Origin: a virus
Strand: one strand, 5' to 3'
Virus record (IMG/VR): IMGVR_UViG_3300021197_001283
Span: 1 to 27,622 of that record
DNA length: 27,622 nucleotides
This document shows, piece after piece, positions 1-18,555 of this stretch. The stretch's first letter is position 1, and each line of letters starts with the position of its first letter. A model generated the notes under the pieces. It was given only the letters and a program-made list of their open reading frames with translations, was not told the origin of the DNA and did not search any database. The translations under genes and the position numbers were made by a program.

Positions 1-541
1 CTGTGCCAGTATATGTGACTGTGTTATCAGAGCCGTCGATGTCCATATAGTTGGTGGCTTGGTCAATATTAATAGTTGAAGTGACCGTATTGTTTGAGCC
101 TTGAATAATCCAATCAAGATCTAATGTTCCTGCTGCTGCGGTGGTTGCTTGGTTCAACGTCATAGTATTACTAGAACCTGTCACGTTGATATTGACGTTA
201 GAGTTATCTGCACCGTAAGTATTGGTCGTGTCAGTAACCACATTCATCACGTTAGAGCCGCCAGTAAACTGAAAAAAACCAGTATAGGTATCAGCAGTAA
301 TATCACCCTTCCACAGGTTGCTTGCGCCTATTTGATTGATATCGAGTGTGTTGGTTGTTCCGATAAAATCAAAGTCAGTTAGATTGCCAGCGACAGAACC
401 CACACCACCAATTAAGTTGCCACCACCTTGTTGCTCTAAATCGATATTCGCCGTCGCGCCAGATTGATCCATAAAAATTTCATTATCCGCAAACAGTGGA
501 TGAGCTAACGTACACAAAACTAATAAAAGTATTCTATTCAT
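1..541 (-). CDS. Secreted curlin-like repeat protein (partial, runs off left edge)
   Basis: The gene reads from ATG at 541-539 and stays open for 180 codons to the window edge, so its C-terminus is missing. Residues 1-18 form a clear Sec signal peptide (MNRILLLVLCTLAHPLFA, then DN). The rest is Asn/Thr/Gly/Asp/Gln-rich with irregular repeats of curlin type, N-x-h-x-h-x-Q-x-G-x-x-N. Examples are NTLDINQIGASN (64-75), NTMTLNQATT (125-134) and STINIDQATNYMDI (155-168), with GS(S/N/D)NT turns at 122-126, 148-152 and 170-174. In CsgA/CsgB such repeats are the strand-turn-strand units of the amyloid beta-solenoid. Its ATG overlaps the csgG stop (ATGA, 538-541), so it is translationally coupled to the secretion pore and is the obvious substrate candidate. 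Spacing between Gln/Asn positions is looser than in E. coli CsgA. A generic beta-helical adhesin is the main alternative. Whether it is the polymer (CsgA) or nucleator (CsgB) counterpart cannot be told. Confidence 0.72.
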   Translation of the reverse strand, partial: MNRILLLVLCTLAHPLFADNEIFMDQSGATANIDLEQQGGGNLIGGVGSVAGNLTDFDFIGTTNTLDINQIGASNLWKGDITADTYTGFFQFTGGSNVMNVVTDTTNTYGADNSNVNINVTGSSNTMTLNQATTAAAGTLDLDWIIQGSNNTVTSTINIDQATNYMDIDGSDNTVTYTGT

Positions 542-1329
542 TTTTTAACGCTCCAGTATCCTGCCGTTAGACCGTCTTGAATTGTTTGGAGAACTGCCGT
601 TTCTATGGCGGCTTGGAGGGCTAAGTTTACAGACTCGTTTTGGACTGAGCCGTTCTCGATTTCAATCAATTCTGTGCCTTGGGCAACAAATTTGAAAACA
701 TCCTGACTATATCCTACACTAAGAATGCTCTTAGTGACCAGAACTTCGAGTAAAACCCTGCCGGTTAGTACCGAAACGGTACGTAACGACACTGTTATCG
801 TATCTTTTCGGTATTTTTTAGACGCTCCAATGCCCAAGTACCTAGCACCCATGCCCCCGGATGTCTCATTACTGTCATAACCGACCACACTTCCTTGCAT
901 CAATAATCCAGCAAACAACAACGGTTTTATCTTTTGTTTCTCGCTGGCTTCTTGTCTCGTAGCGCGAATGATCTGTCGTTCCTTCATTAGGTTGTCTACA
1001 CCAACGCGCTCAACTACATCAAAGAACCCTTGCTTTTGACCACCTGCATGGTGCAACGCTCGAATTAAATAAGTTACCGGGCTTTGCGTAACCGCTGTAC
1101 TAAAGTTTGCAAACTCTCCATTGCTGCGCCGTTGCCCAGTGTCGTCATTAAAAGCCACGCCATACACCGCAACGACAGGTCTTTTTTCTGGTGGTTCAAC
1201 ACGAGCTAGTTCGGTAACCAGTAACGGTCGGATCTTGGGCAGCTGTTTTTTAGGGACAACGTGGTTGCTGACAGTAGTGCAGCTAGAAGTAAAAATCACC
1301 AATAGGCACAGAAATAATAGTCGTGCCAC
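538..1329 (-). CDS. csgG: CsgG-like curli secretion pore lipoprotein
   Basis: This is the homologue of CsgG, the outer-membrane lipoprotein that forms the nonameric pore exporting curli subunits. Matches to E. coli CsgG run along the whole length: DDTGQ, ANFSTAVTQS, a region like ERxGLxNLLxERxIIRA (here ERVGVDNLMKERQIIRA), GSVVGYDSN, GARYLGIGA, and AIETAVLQTIQDG near the C-terminus. The frame is open up to an ATG at 1434, but that would overlap csgF by about 150 nt and put 35 extra residues before the signal peptide. I prefer GTG at 1329. It gives MARLLFLCLLVIFTSS|C, a lipoprotein signal with the lipidated Cys at residue 17, and a 263-aa precursor (E. coli 277). Its stop overlaps the start of the curlin-like gene. 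The lipobox (TSSC) is slightly off consensus. Of the E. coli pore-constriction residues, Asn55 and Phe56 align with NF at residues 75-76 here, but Tyr51 is not matched. Family assignment is firm; the start is less so. Confidence 0.93.
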   Translation of the reverse strand: MARLLFLCLLVIFTSSCTTVSNHVVPKKQLPKIRPLLVTELARVEPPEKRPVVAVYGVAFNDDTGQRRSNGEFANFSTAVTQSPVTYLIRALHHAGGQKQGFFDVVERVGVDNLMKERQIIRATRQEASEKQKIKPLLFAGLLMQGSVVGYDSNETSGGMGARYLGIGASKKYRKDTITVSLRTVSVLTGRVLLEVLVTKSILSVGYSQDVFKFVAQGTELIEIENGSVQNESVNLALQAAIETAVLQTIQDGLTAGYWSVKK

Positions 1330-1804
1330 CTGATTGGTCAGTGACGGTGAGCGAAACAGTTTGTCCGTTAGTGCTGTAGTCAACTTTATTGCCCTCAAGC
1401 TCAAAGCTTCCACTCTCTGATTTTGTTTCTCCAAACATGTTATCTACTAATTGCCTAGACAACTCTGCGTATATTCTACTCTCTAAATTCCTAATAAACC
1501 TAGCCAAGGTACTATTATTGACTTCGCGCTCTGCTTCTTCAACCAAAGCAAGCTTCTCTTCTTTAATAGTATTTTCTCGACTGTGTTCTTGGTTTTCGAT
1601 AGTCAGGTAGTGAGCAGATGTGCCGTTGCCAGAAAAGCTAGGGCTTTTAAATTTGTGCAACATTTCCGCAGACGCAGTGTTTAGCGGAGAAAACAGTAAC
1701 AAAATAAAACAAACCAAAACCACACAAAAAATAACAACAACATGCCCTACAATGCTAGTTACTGTTTTTAGTATCTTTTTTATCTTGGATCTCACGTATT
1801 TCAA
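1283..1804 (-). CDS. csgF: CsgF-like curli assembly factor
   Basis: This is the homologue of CsgF, the exported partner that caps the CsgG pore and couples secretion to surface nucleation. A long hydrophobic N-terminus (about residues 21-46, ending TASA) looks like a signal peptide. The mature protein begins EMLHKFKSPSFSGNG, which matches the E. coli CsgF N-terminal plug (FRNPNFGGN) at F52, P55, F57, G59 and N60; E. coli Asn9 becomes Ser54. The C-terminal end (QTVSLTVTDQSGG, then TTIISV) resembles the E. coli beta-sheet end (LQLNVTDRKTG, TSTIQV). The middle is a charged helical stretch (about 75-125). At about 173 aa it is longer than E. coli CsgF (138 aa), mostly through the leader. The start is TTG at 1804, or GTG at 1795; neither has a strong ribosome-binding site, and both overlap the upstream gene's end, suggesting coupling. 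csgG begins inside its last codons. Confidence 0.88.
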   Translation of the reverse strand: MKYVRSKIKKILKTVTSIVGHVVVIFCVVLVCFILLLFSPLNTASAEMLHKFKSPSFSGNGTSAHYLTIENQEHSRENTIKEEKLALVEEAEREVNNSTLARFIRNLESRIYAELSRQLVDNMFGETKSESGSFELEGNKVDYSTNGQTVSLTVTDQSGGTTIISVPIGDFYF

Positions 1805-2015
1805 TCACCGTATCAAGCTTTTGTTGTAACCGTATGATATCGTTATCCAACATACGAATGCGGTCTATTAAGCCTACCAGAGTGGTCATAGTTTCGCCAA
1901 GCTTAGATTTTATTTTGGTAGTAATAAACTGCCAGATAAAATAAATCATGTACAGCAAGCCAACTGTCGCAACAATCGGAAACCCGTATTCGTTAATTAC
2001 TTGAGCAATATCCAC
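1755..2015 (-). CDS. Small single-TM protein with coiled coil, holin-like
   Basis: This 86-aa protein starts at GTG 2015, which overlaps the stop of the gene before it (TAGTG). It has one TM segment near the N-terminus (about residues 11-31, starting YGFPIVATVG), then a basic stretch and a heptad-like helix (about 42-75, LVGLIDRIRMLDNDIIRLQQ). The layout matches the protein at 2178-2459: an acidic short N-terminus, a GFPI motif at the start of the TM, then a coiled coil with D-x-x-R. The two look like diverged paralogues. Small single-TM, coiled-coil proteins next to lysis genes are often holins or holin partners. Here the gene sits directly before csgF, so an inner-membrane role in lysis or in the curli cassette are both open. 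No family is firmly recognised. Confidence 0.72.
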   Translation of the reverse strand: MDIAQVINEYGFPIVATVGLLYMIYFIWQFITTKIKSKLGETMTTLVGLIDRIRMLDNDIIRLQQKLDTVIEIREIQDKKDTKNSN

Positions 2016-2206
2016 TAAAATAGACTTATTTGTGGATTGAGGTTACGTTTTTTACATTCTTTTTCTAAAGCTTTGTCGGAAGCGTAGATTAATAGTTTTT
2101 CGGCTTCTTTTCTTTTTCTTTCCTGCTCCAATAGAATAAGTTTTTTTATTTCTTCTACCGGGCCATATTGAGATAAATCAATCTCTTCTCGCGTCTTCTT
2201 TTCCAT
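2015..2206 (-). CDS. Small charged helical protein, unknown
   Basis: This 63-aa protein is dominated by Lys and Glu (MEKKTREEIDLSQYG at the N-terminus, then a helix rich in E, K and R at about 17-53). It has no signal peptide or membrane segment, so it is probably cytoplasmic. It overlaps the end of the preceding gene by 29 nt and shares TAGTG with the next one. Its place between two similar single-TM proteins suggests that it belongs to the same membrane or lysis cassette. I do not recognise a family. It is accepted as real because the coding chain is continuous and the flanking overlaps are tight. Confidence 0.6.
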   Translation of the reverse strand: MEKKTREEIDLSQYGPVEEIKKLILLEQERKRKEAEKLLIYASDKALEKECKKRNLNPQISLF

Positions 2207-2459
2207 CGGCTCTTGATATCCTTTCTAGATCTGGGCGTATGCCTAACACGCTACACATTGTGCAATCCATTCTTACCATATCATGGTTCATGGTTTTTAC
2301 TCTATTGTCTAAACCTTGCACAATCACATGAATGCTCTGCACCTGACCGACAACAGATTCAAGTATGTATTTTATCGTAAGAAATATAAAGAAGCCGCCG
2401 ATAAGCGACATCGCTATGGGAAAACCGACCTCTGCAATCAGAGCAAACGCTTCGCCCAT
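2178..2459 (-). CDS. Small single-TM protein, paralogue-like to 1755-2015
   Basis: This 93-aa protein starts at ATG 2459, sharing TGATG with the upstream stop. It has one strong TM segment (about residues 8-35, EVGFPIAMSLIGG onward), followed by an amphipathic, likely coiled-coil stretch (about 36-66, including VQGLDNRVKTMNHDMVR) and a charged tail. The pattern E-x-GFPI, then TM, then L-D-x-R and D-x-x-R is shared with the 86-aa protein two genes on. Two Cys lie just after the coiled coil (M-D-C-T-M-C). A holin-type or membrane-scaffold role is inferred from size, topology and position after the two-TM protein; no catalytic motif is present. Confidence 0.72.
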   Translation of the reverse strand: MGEAFALIAEVGFPIAMSLIGGFFIFLTIKYILESVVGQVQSIHVIVQGLDNRVKTMNHDMVRMDCTMCSVLGIRPDLERISRADGKEDARRD

Positions 2460-2806
2460 CAGTCACCGCCTTTGAAGGCTTTGCTTTGTTTGTTCGTTCC
2501 TGCGTAAATTCCAAACACCGCTGCCATCGCTCCAACGACAATGCTGACCAACCCTGCTTGTTCTAGGTTTGGTTCTTTTAATTCCATGAACCAAGTGACT
2601 ACGTCGTAAAGCAATACAATGTAAACCGTGACAAAGATTCTAGGGAATATGCGCCAAGCATCTACCGTCTTAGCTAAATGCACCCACTTTTGAAACGGGT
2701 TAACCCCTATGTTATTGGGTGTAACTTCTAACTCTAGCTCAACCTTCTTTTTAACAGGTTCTTCGGTTTTTACTTCCGGAGGTGCTTCTGGTGTTATTTC
2801 TTTCAT
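2459..2806 (-). CDS. Two-TM holin-like membrane protein
   Basis: This 115-aa protein has a Glu/Pro/Lys-rich N-terminus (about residues 1-30) and then two hydrophobic segments: about 53-73 (FPRIFVTVYIVLLYDVVTWF) and about 82-104 (AGLVSIVVGAMAAVFGIYAG). The pattern of a tryptophan-ended first helix, a short acidic loop (MELKEPNLEQ) and a small-residue-rich second helix recurs in small membrane proteins of marine phages that are usually called holins. It is the first gene of the block of membrane and export genes that ends with the curli genes, so it may start a lysis cassette. There is no endolysin next to it. The ATG has only a weak upstream ribosome-binding site (GGA about 9 nt away). Confidence 0.74.
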   Translation of the reverse strand: MKEITPEAPPEVKTEEPVKKKVELELEVTPNNIGVNPFQKWVHLAKTVDAWRIFPRIFVTVYIVLLYDVVTWFMELKEPNLEQAGLVSIVVGAMAAVFGIYAGTNKQSKAFKGGD

Positions 2807-15489: not shown

Positions 15490-15825
15490 TTACCAAGATG
15501 AAGGTAGTTTACCTACGCTAGTAGGCGTGTCTAACTCTGTCAATTGCGCGTCTATGTCAGCTTTTAGCGCTGCTTCAGTTTTATCTAAAGCTGCAAGCGT
15601 TTGTGTCTTGCACCAAGCCTCGGTCAAAGAATTAAACGCTGTAAAGCTATCTGCATTTGCAGCACCTATAGTTGCTTGCCCATAGATTGAAGTAGCATTA
15701 TTTGGGGTTCTTGTGTCACTAACGCCAGTGATTCGCCAGTGTATAGATTTAACTACGTCACTCAACGAACCCTCGCTAGGTGCTGTATCTAGTTGGACAA
15801 AATTCCATGTGTATGTGTTAGCCAT
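15490..15825 (-). CDS. Conserved small phage protein (DUF7936-like), fibre-associated
   Basis: This 111-aa protein starts at ATG 15825, overlapping the fibre stop (TAATG). Its ribosome-binding site, GGAGG, lies inside the last codons of that fibre gene. The N-terminus (MANTYTWNFVQLDTAP) and the V-K-S-I-H-W-R-I-T strand are typical of a small beta-sandwich-like protein widespread in marine and cyanophage tail regions. The C-terminal half is helical (LAALDKTEAALKADIDAQL). Function is unknown. Its constant place beside tail-fibre genes suggests a fibre-associated or assembly role. Confidence 0.78.
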   Translation of the reverse strand: MANTYTWNFVQLDTAPSEGSLSDVVKSIHWRITGVSDTRTPNNATSIYGQATIGAANADSFTAFNSLTEAWCKTQTLAALDKTEAALKADIDAQLTELDTPTSVGKLPSSW

Positions 15826-17207
15826 TATCCTGCCTCCAGTGCTGTTATTCTTGCTTCTAATTCTTGTATTGTTTTTACTAGTAATGGTACTAGCTTACTT
15901 TGATCTATCTGCTGATGAATTGGTTTGTTGTCATCGTCTACTGCATCTTTTGCGCCTGTAATTGCATTTGGCACAACGCTTGATACTTCATGTGCAAGAA
16001 AACCATCAACAGTTCCTTTTTCTCGGTCTGCAATAAAATTAAACCTTGCTGGTTTGAGTTGTTTTAGTCTTGTAGTCGCATCAAAAGTATAACTAACATT
16101 TTCTTTTAATCTGTAGTCAGAAGATGTATTAAATGCTGTTGCTGTACCGCTCGAACCTGTAATTGAGCCTATTAAATCGTTGTTAGACTCTTTATAAAAA
16201 GCCATAAAATAATTGTTAGTGCCACCTCTAAGAGCAACTGGTGTTACAGAGCCTCCAGTAACTTGTAGGTATGCGTTATCGCTAGCAATAATACTGGTTT
16301 GGTTAATTAAAACCTGTCCATTTGACCGTATACGCATGCGTTCTGTGCCGCCAGTTGTTGCATCGTTAGCACCAGTATGAAAACGTAAATTTGTAGCGGC
16401 GTTTAGCTCGCCAACACCTCCACCAAGATAGACTATATTATCAGTACCATTGCTGAGAACGACAACCCCTGCAACGTCTTGTTCTGAATTGTGATAATGC
16501 GAACCAGCATATGTGCAGTACTTAGCCGTATCATTGGACTGACTCTGCGAACCGACAAACTGATTGCCGACTGACCCTATTACTGTTAGCGTTCTTGTTG
16601 GAGCAGATGTGCCTATACCTACCTTGCCAGCACTAGTAATACGCATGGCTTCTGAGCGTTGAGGTTTGAAAATTGCCTGACCAAGACCATCAATAGTAAA
16701 AACAGGAAAATAACCACTGCTTGACCCGTTCCAACCCATAGCACCTTCAAGAATAAAACTGCTATCAGCCGCCCACCTATTTTGAACAGCTAGCCCATTA
16801 TAGGTATCGGAGTCTTGTTCATTAACAACTCTTGCCGCCCAAACACCTGATGTTGGCCCTGATATGTTTCCGTCACCTGCAAGTAACACATCTAAAGTAG
16901 AAGCCGCTGCCGCGTGACCTATACCTACTTTTGTAGTTCCTGTTGGTATGTTAATAACTGTAGCGTCAGCGTCATTCTTGATAGTTACGTCTGATGTTGA
17001 GCCTTGTCCAGTAAGTATTAGCCCCTCAGCAGATGTGTAACCTACTGCCGCCGCATTTCCAGCACTTGTGTCTCCAGCTTGGCTTATGTCATTGGTTAAT
17101 ATTGTGCCTGTGGTTGCAGGCAAGGTCAGCGTTCTAGTCCCTGCTTCATCGGGTACTGCTAGCGTTACCGCACCTGATGTTGCTCCGCTTATTACTACGC
17201 TACCCAT
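15825..17207 (-). CDS. Tail fibre with self-cleaving S74 chaperone domain (1)
   Basis: This 460-aa protein is a beta-repeat fibre. The N-terminal half carries the shared module GYTSAEGLILTGQGSTSDVT (about 53-72) and then IPTGTTKVGIG. The middle is beta-rich, with R-I-T-S-A-G-K-V-G-I-G repeats. The C-terminal 99 residues are a Peptidase_S74 intramolecular chaperone: SSDYRLKENV (362-371) holds the Ser-Lys dyad (Ser363, Lys368, spaced by five as in endosialidases). DGFLAHEVS and a C-terminal coiled coil (LLVKTIQELEARITALE) follow. Such domains trimerise the fibre and then cut themselves off. The gene is tightly coupled to both neighbours. The C-terminal domain is nearly the same as that of the next fibre gene (17207-18394), implying duplication. 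The receptor is unknown. Confidence 0.93.
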   Translation of the reverse strand: MGSVVISGATSGAVTLAVPDEAGTRTLTLPATTGTILTNDISQAGDTSAGNAAAVGYTSAEGLILTGQGSTSDVTIKNDADATVINIPTGTTKVGIGHAAAASTLDVLLAGDGNISGPTSGVWAARVVNEQDSDTYNGLAVQNRWAADSSFILEGAMGWNGSSSGYFPVFTIDGLGQAIFKPQRSEAMRITSAGKVGIGTSAPTRTLTVIGSVGNQFVGSQSQSNDTAKYCTYAGSHYHNSEQDVAGVVVLSNGTDNIVYLGGGVGELNAATNLRFHTGANDATTGGTERMRIRSNGQVLINQTSIIASDNAYLQVTGGSVTPVALRGGTNNYFMAFYKESNNDLIGSITGSSGTATAFNTSSDYRLKENVSYTFDATTRLKQLKPARFNFIADREKGTVDGFLAHEVSSVVPNAITGAKDAVDDDNKPIHQQIDQSKLVPLLVKTIQELEARITALEAG

Positions 17208-18394
17208 CAGCTTCCCTCCAGTGTGCTTATTCTAGCTTCTAACGCTTCAATAACAGTCTGCTGTTCTTGTATTGTTTTTACTAGTAATGGTACTAGTTTA
17301 CTTTGATCTATGCTTTGATGGATTGGGTCGCCATCGCCGTCTACCGCGTCTTTTGCGCCTGTAACAGCTTCTGGAACAATGCTAGACACCTCATGAGCTA
17401 AAAACCCATCTACTGTTGTGTCTGCATCTGTTTTAAAATTAAATCTTGCAGGTTTGAGTTGTTTTAATCTTGTGGTTGCATCAAATGAATAACTAACATT
17501 TTCTTTTAATCTATAGTCAGAGCTTGTGTTAAAAGAAGTTGCAGAACCGTCTGTAGAAATATTGCCAACAAGTCCATTACCATTGACAAAACCTATCATG
17601 CTAACCGAACTAGTAACAAACGCACTGCCATCAGTGGTTTTAGCTCTAACACACATTCCTGTTCTTGCTCCAGAACGTCCGTCTAATTGAAAACAAGCAT
17701 TACCAATAGAACCGTCTGAATAGGCGGCGTTCGATTGAATTAAAACATTGCTTCCACCTATAAATAATGTATTTGTAGCATTGCCTTCATTTATAACAAC
17801 AGGAAAACTTCCAGTATCTCTGTCGTTTATTACCATAGAACCTGTTGCTATTGACTGCGCTCCATCTGACCTTACTTGAAAACCATAACCAGCGTTGCCA
17901 TCTTCAAAAATTAATTCGGCATAATTGTTGCTTACGGTCGTTGCAATTTTTGCGGTTGTCGCTGCGCCACTAGAAATTTCTACAAGACTGTCTGGAGCAG
18001 TTGTGCCTATACCCACTTTACCATCATTTAATATACGGACTCGTTCTGTATTATTTGTATTGAAACGAAATGGGATATTATCGCTAGTACCGATTCCACC
18101 AATGCCATTATAGTTCTCAACATCTACTATACCGCCGCCTGAAGTACGGCTAAACCTAGCCGCTACACCATCAGCCCCAGATGCTACATGAAGATTTACC
18201 GCCGCCGCCGTTGTTCCTATGCCTACTTTTGTAGTTCCTGTAGGTATACTTAAAACTGTAGCATCAGCATCGTTTTTAATCGTTACATCTGACGTACTGC
18301 CTTGCCCAGTAATTATTACGCCTTCTGCGCTTGTATACCCAAGACCTGCATCATCTCCTGCTGATGTATCTGAACCGTTTAATACTAAAGCCAT
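17207..18394 (-). CDS. Tail fibre with self-cleaving S74 chaperone domain (2)
   Basis: I choose ATG 18394 (395 aa) because GGAGG stands 7 nt before it and it shares TGATG with the 53-aa gene upstream. An earlier in-frame codon at 18433 lacks such a site. The N-terminus MALVLNGSDTSAGDDAGLGY leads into the shared module GVIITGQGSTSDVTIKNDAD. Beta repeats with V-G-I-G-T-T follow (G-K-V-G-I-G-T-T-A-P). The C-terminal approximately 105 residues are a Peptidase_S74 domain: SSDYRLKENVSYSFDATTRL with dyad Ser292/Lys297, DGFLAHEVSSIVPEA, and a coiled coil at the end. Identity with fibre 1 is very high across this domain but low in the central, presumably receptor-facing, part. This fits a duplicated chaperone with diversified binding regions. 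Confidence 0.92.
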   Translation of the reverse strand: MALVLNGSDTSAGDDAGLGYTSAEGVIITGQGSTSDVTIKNDADATVLSIPTGTTKVGIGTTAAAVNLHVASGADGVAARFSRTSGGGIVDVENYNGIGGIGTSDNIPFRFNTNNTERVRILNDGKVGIGTTAPDSLVEISSGAATTAKIATTVSNNYAELIFEDGNAGYGFQVRSDGAQSIATGSMVINDRDTGSFPVVINEGNATNTLFIGGSNVLIQSNAAYSDGSIGNACFQLDGRSGARTGMCVRAKTTDGSAFVTSSVSMIGFVNGNGLVGNISTDGSATSFNTSSDYRLKENVSYSFDATTRLKQLKPARFNFKTDADTTVDGFLAHEVSSIVPEAVTGAKDAVDGDGDPIHQSIDQSKLVPLLVKTIQEQQTVIEALEARISTLEGS

Positions 18395-18555
18395 CAGTCT
18401 GCCTCCGCTATGGTGTTCCCAGCGGCAACCCATTTTAAAATTTCTTGATAATGATTATTGCTAGTATCTACTGGTACTGCCCAAGTTACCCCATCAATAA
18501 CAGCATTAACTGATTTATTTTTATCGCTTGCGTATTTTGCAGATGTAATATTCAT
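18394..18555 (-). CDS. 53-aa conserved fibre-linked protein
   Basis: This short gene lies in what would otherwise be a gap between two fibre genes. It runs from ATG 18555 to TGA 18394-18396. The protein starts MNITSAKYASDKNKSVNAVI, has a central DGVTWAVPVD strand, and ends in the helix NNHYQEILKWVAAGNTIAEA plus D. A YQEIL-x-W-x-A-x-GNTI-x-x-A-D ending is common in tiny proteins next to tail fibres of marine phages, so I take it as real. Its last codons (GCG GAG GCA GAC TGA) supply the ribosome-binding site of the next fibre gene and overlap its start. It is probably a fibre-associated or host-range accessory protein; the function is unknown. Confidence 0.8.
   Translation of the reverse strand: MNITSAKYASDKNKSVNAVIDGVTWAVPVDTSNNHYQEILKWVAAGNTIAEAD

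Follow-up and report, generated by a model that had tools for sequence, protein, structure and literature searches.

A marine phage probably carries a curli (type VIII) secretion cassette, and its curlin-like gene is exchanged between phages

We find that a marine virus record from IMG/VR (27,622 bases, analysed here in full and called the window) bears, at the left end of the contig, a set of genes that is probably a phage-borne curli (type VIII) secretion cassette, exporting a curli-like fibre to the cell surface during infection. We also find that the coding region of its substrate gene, csgA, has been exchanged between phages independently of the flanking csgG and fecR. Across relatives, the cassette has the order TM1-TM2-csgF-csgG-csgA-fecR-adenylate cyclase. 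The original prediction placed csgF, csgG and a curlin candidate at positions 1-1804; the three genes are indeed found there, on the minus strand, whereas the module is larger and extends from 2459 to beyond the contig end.

1..541, minus strand: csgA-like curlin subunit gene; 180 of about 238 aa, with the 3' end lost at the contig end (from the ORF list and full-length relatives)
538..1329, minus strand: csgG, outer-membrane secretion pore lipoprotein; 263 aa, GTG start, lipobox TSSC
1283..1804, minus strand: csgF, pore-coupling factor; PF10614, CsgG-plug motif KFKSPSFSGNG
1755..2015, minus strand: TM2; 86 aa, with a single membrane segment at the N-terminus and a charged tail; phrog_18771, constant member of the cassette
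2178..2459, minus strand: TM1; 93 aa, TM2 paralogue, phrog_18771
2459..2806, minus strand: 115-aa protein with two hydrophobic segments; phrog_10198, a neighbour only (14/76 loci), not a fixed member

As judged by Pfam homology, the identities of CsgF (PF10614, E 5.2e-21) and CsgG (PF03783, E 3.3e-46) are certain, in agreement with the clear homologues first proposed. CsgG additionally matches E. coli CsgG in a phmmer search of PDB sequences (E 5e-42). Its gene stops at 538, and its start is best set at the GTG at 1329, which gives MARLLFLCLLVIFTSSC, a lipoprotein signal, with LLSSC at that place in relatives; the TTG at 1434 taken as the start by the ORF lister was rejected as too far upstream. 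There is a 47-bp overlap between csgF and csgG. Alignment of the window CsgF to E. coli CsgF (6l7a) covers the N-terminus of the latter, a match that is weak alone (E 0.04); the window protein retains the N-terminal KFKSPSFSGNG, the counterpart of the peptide with which E. coli CsgF plugs the pore. In CsgG-CsgF structures, this E. coli peptide sits in the pore. We note that a 1.5-kb wastewater fragment labelled 'Salmonella phage S.Kent' (OR851715.1) encodes a CsgG 38% identical to that of the window and may be contaminating DNA.

The third ORF (541-2) runs off the contig end without a stop; its product has a signal peptide and N-x-h-x-h-x-Q-x-G motifs. As first described, the ORF is coupled to csgG by the ATGA overlap of the csgG stop and its own ATG at 541-538. 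The complete gene, which an extension of the contig to the left was to supply, was recovered from near relatives (CsgG 96-98% identical), where it encodes 238 aa and is followed by genes for a protein with a FecR domain and for a CHASE2 adenylate cyclase. The motif Q-x-G-x-x-N is above chance, at 1.7 per protein over 37 relatives versus 0.11 in shuffles; canonical Q-x-G-x-x-N repeats number 1-2 in the third protein, as against 3-18 in the bacterial curlins inspected. In searches of the third gene alone against Pfam, PHROG and PDB sequences, no significant curlin match was obtained in the window clade. Genome by genome, Curlin_rpt (PF07012) matched in 15/16 records and passed its cut-off of 20.7 bits in four (G001, G014, HTVC008M and Melnitz): the window fragment scored 8.4 bits, a near relative 16.1 bits, and the G001 homologue, 92% identical in the mature region, 20.8 bits. 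A profile of the phage csgA, run on nine cellular csgG loci, identified repeat-rich curlin ORFs adjacent to csgG in several, with a best E of 5e-6 in this small search; E. coli CsgA was absent from the listed matches when PDB sequences were searched with a profile.

The structure search proposed for this product points in the same direction. An AlphaFold2 model built from 37 relatives is a beta-solenoid (pLDDT 84, pTM 0.81), whose top viral fold matches in BFVD are phage proteins annotated 'Curlin associated' (E 6e-5). Among PDB folds, the E. coli CsgA fibril 8enq was matched with Z 12.2 and an rmsd of 8.8 over 110 residues, its 19% being among the highest sequence identities of the PDB matches listed; SufB/SufD-like proteins gave the highest Z, and many beta-helices outscore 8enq. 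Since CsgA is not singled out among beta-helices, we rejected the PDB fold search as proof of a curlin, and the modelled fold is consistent with one without being decisive. From the Curlin_rpt matches, the profile search of cellular loci, the beta-solenoid model and the curlin-annotated viral matches, we conclude that the third gene is a divergent, degenerate curlin. It is under purifying selection (dN/dS ~0.07). We note that two invariant cysteines, C226 and the last residue, C238, close the curlin-like protein of the window clade (alignment A3), an ending that is missing from the first curlin gene of HTVC008M and from that of Melnitz.

The same three-gene order was sought in marine viruses by scanning IMG/VR with the CsgG protein and aligning the matches, which gave 33 loci and then 80 out of at least 578 relatives. 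Counting the loci with room for the gene in question, and bearing in mind that many are close relatives and the numbers hence not independent, csgG is preceded by csgF in 86/86 and by at least one copy of the TM pair in 65/65, and is followed by csgA in 91/91, fecR in 83/83 and the cyclase in 34/39. The link of csgF and csgA to csgG is thus conserved. In the downstream genes of relatives, Pfam detects a FecR domain and CHASE2 and cyclase domains, and the FecR fold is backed by structure (Z 15.2 and 13.2). The FecR tail, YTVIxIQxGVxNxVKINGGxxSxIKIxQ, is strongly conserved (last 35 columns of alignment A4) and resembles two curlin strands by eye; a curlin repeat at this C-terminus was rejected, with profile scores no higher than those of shuffled curlins and no Pfam match. 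CsgE (PF10627) gave no match in 16 phage records, mostly partial, while the E. coli control was detected. CsgE is present in the E. coli type VIII system and is not universal, hence not strictly defining.

The original prediction had named a contig chimeric with bacterial DNA as an alternative. We rejected chimerism because independent contigs show this cassette again, likewise flanked by phage sequence; two of them (L004 and L006) align with the window over the upstream junction at 91-93%. GC content along the window ranges from 38 to 47%, at about 42% overall, and no tRNA was found in the window as a clue to the host. Tail-fibre and virion genes lie on its minus strand; at 15825-18433, two adjoining genes belong to the same tail-fibre PHROG families (phrog_18345 and phrog_19195), as if duplicated. 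CsgG-like matches in bacterial genome contigs (L126-L132) were not accepted as bacterial, since these contigs bear the cassette and are apparently phage DNA binned with MAGs; the bins carry the labels Flavobacteriales, Sphingobacteriales, Rhodobacteraceae and Pelagibacter. Binning artefacts may explain the curli genes of such MAGs.

By the structural genes, the window phage is distantly related to HTVC023P/HTVC027P and DSL-LC04: the portal of a near relative is 51-53% identical to theirs, and a 637-aa protein also places the window lineage near them. A second carrier, G001, has structural genes of the HMO-2011 type, with a portal 61% identical to that of HTVC115P, which we take to be of this type, and 49% to that of HMO-2011 itself. 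The type VIII module has been described in HTVC023P-type podophages and in myophages (PMC9599517), and no paper containing both 'HMO-2011' and 'curli' was found in the open full-text literature.

The two TM proteins bear on a published annotation, in which one or occasionally two short histidine kinase ('HK') genes invariably stand before csgF (PMC9599517). In the loci analysed here, including HTVC008M, that position is held by the TM1/TM2 family, whose members each combine a single membrane segment with a charged tail; Pfam and PHROGs gave no match to a kinase domain (HisKA, HATPase) for the 86- and 93-aa proteins. From position, short length and copy number, TM1/TM2 are probably the published 'HK' genes, and correcting the label takes away a misleading regulatory model. 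Members of the TM1 family are confined, within the annotated phage collection, to the six records of HTVC008M and Melnitz, each of which has csgG as well. A 63-aa ORF between TM1 and TM2 (2015-2206) was rejected as a cassette member, as it is missing from L004 and other relatives, in which the paralogues abut there.

Gene-by-gene comparison of synonymous divergence (NG86) reveals that csgA does not share the history of its neighbours. Between L014 and L033, dS is 0.14 in csgG and 0.17 in fecR, and 1.03 in csgA; between L018 and L024, the corresponding values are 0.10, 0.16 and 1.18. The converse is seen between L002 and L014, with dS of 1.49 and 1.63 in csgG and fecR and just 0.25 in csgA. Of 85 pairs in which csgG and fecR are close, 20 differ strongly in csgA and fall into three distinct clusters of loci; pairs within one cluster share events, so that the independent exchanges amount to a handful. 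With csgG or fecR as the middle gene, the control test gave 0/38, 0/40, 0/56 and 2/83. The gene trees conflict, with strong support: L014 groups with L031/L033 in the csgG (0.997) and fecR (1.0) trees, and with the L002 group in the csgA tree (support 1.0). Sliding identity breaks near or inside the ends of the csgA ORF, and the csgA signal peptide stays with the local lineage. Assembly chimerism is an unlikely source of this mosaic, since the flanks agree on both sides and the pattern occurs in independent metagenomes, although it is possible for single contigs.

We propose that the curlin-like protein would be exported by the host Sec machinery, given its signal peptide, and then pass through an outer-membrane CsgG pore that CsgF, by homology, would couple to the cell surface. 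This pore would work without its usual gate, CsgE. Outside the cell, the protein may fold into beta-solenoid fibres, the fold being predicted and amyloid formation presumed, while FecR, whose signal sequence places it in the periplasm, and the inner-membrane CHASE2 adenylate cyclase probably act as sensors or regulators of the process. The surface change would most likely serve the phage by keeping out competitors or making host cells clump. Superinfection defence and aggregation have both been proposed for such modules (PMC9599517); the known hosts of these phages are without curli genes (PMC9599517, PMC9004378), and no clumping was seen with Melnitz in culture (PMC9004378). If our reading is right, a cell would bear surface curli-like amyloid only while infected. 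The cassette is found on hundreds of marine virus contigs, with at least 578 relatives. The invariance and exchange of the substrate gene argue for a role of the fibre; against a curlin fibre, the window record and its nearest relative fall below the Pfam curlin cut-off and the repeats are few.

These points bear differently on the other explanations. An ungated CsgG-CsgF outer-membrane pore that times or aids lysis, with the curlin-like protein as a plug or leftover, has been proposed in its lysis-pore form for Melnitz (PMC9004378) and was among the uses first suggested for the window. It would account for the missing CsgE gate in the 16 records and for Rz/Rz1 spanins and/or lysozyme encoded at most 2.5 kb downstream from the cyclase in 28/60 loci, with spanins present in the window's nearest relative. 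In the other 32/60 loci, however, no lysis gene was found near the cyclase, and we rejected a fixed lysis-cassette neighbourhood on these counts; a bare pore would, moreover, need no CsgF, and no locus with room for it lacks the substrate gene, which is under purifying selection and actively exchanged. The independent exchange of the substrate gene suggests that selection acts on the fibre as well as on the pore, which favours explanations with a fibre over a lysis pore. The invariant substrate gene weakens the lysis-pore idea, which we regard as unlikely. Uptake of nutrients or cofactors through the pore into the infected cell (suggested in PMC7029224 and PMC9599517) would likewise suit a pore without a gate, but leaves CsgF, the curlin gene and its exchange unexplained, and we find it very improbable.

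The third protein could instead be a secreted, CsgG-dependent beta-solenoid adhesin or enzyme-like fibre that forms no amyloid. Degenerate repeats, a conserved C-terminal cysteine pair and a confident monomeric solenoid model, which is like many beta-helix proteins and has SufB/SufD-like folds at the highest Z, would fit such a protein; the curlin-annotated viral fold matches, the profile matches to bacterial curlins and the place of 8enq among the highest-identity PDB matches listed, albeit at an rmsd of 8.8, make it improbable in our view. For the preferred reading of an exported curli-like fibre, the exchange of csgA allows a further step, which we offer as a speculation and consider unlikely: unrelated phages of the same waters would swap the curlin coding region and keep their own pore, signal peptide and regulators, with the type of amyloid fibre under selection. 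Cross-seeding with the fibres of neighbours, or recognition by rival phages, might conceivably exert such selection.

The pairing of pore and substrate, which had looked new in the original prediction, was already known. A CsgF-CsgG-CsgA/B-FecR-AC operon was described in podo- and myophages in 2022 (PMC9599517) and is also discussed in PMC7029224 and PMC9004378; the GenBank annotation of HTVC008M (KC465899) lists CsgF, CsgG, a 'curlin minor subunit CsgB' and, further on, an adenylate cyclase, and that of Melnitz two curlin-repeat proteins and FecR. We did not find published the exchange of csgA, a carrier of the HMO-2011 type, or TM paralogues without a kinase domain behind the 'HK' label. The exchange lies outside the scope of PMC9599517 because CsgA/B, like 'HK', were omitted from its phylogenies as short, diverged or paralogous.

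Compared with the HTVC023P-type pelagipodophages and the pelagimyophages (PMC9599517), the gene order from CsgF to AC is the same and CsgE is absent from both; in place of that paper's 'histidine kinase' there is a pair of short membrane proteins, and the window phage has a GC content of about 42%. The TM proteins, csgF, csgG, curlin, fecR and cyclase are shared with HTVC008M and Melnitz, whose CsgG proteins are 42% and 39% identical to that of the window; both have a second, longer curlin between fecR and the cyclase, which was not found in near relatives of the window. CsgF, CsgG and adjoining curlins are also common to bacterial curli operons (E. coli csgBAC/csgDEFG and the alphaproteobacterial and Bacteroidota csgFG loci). 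The nine cellular loci inspected have csgF, csgG and usually repeat-rich curlins, with no phage-type TM pair, FecR or cyclase within ~7 kb, and E. coli curli additionally has CsgE, CsgD and CsgC.
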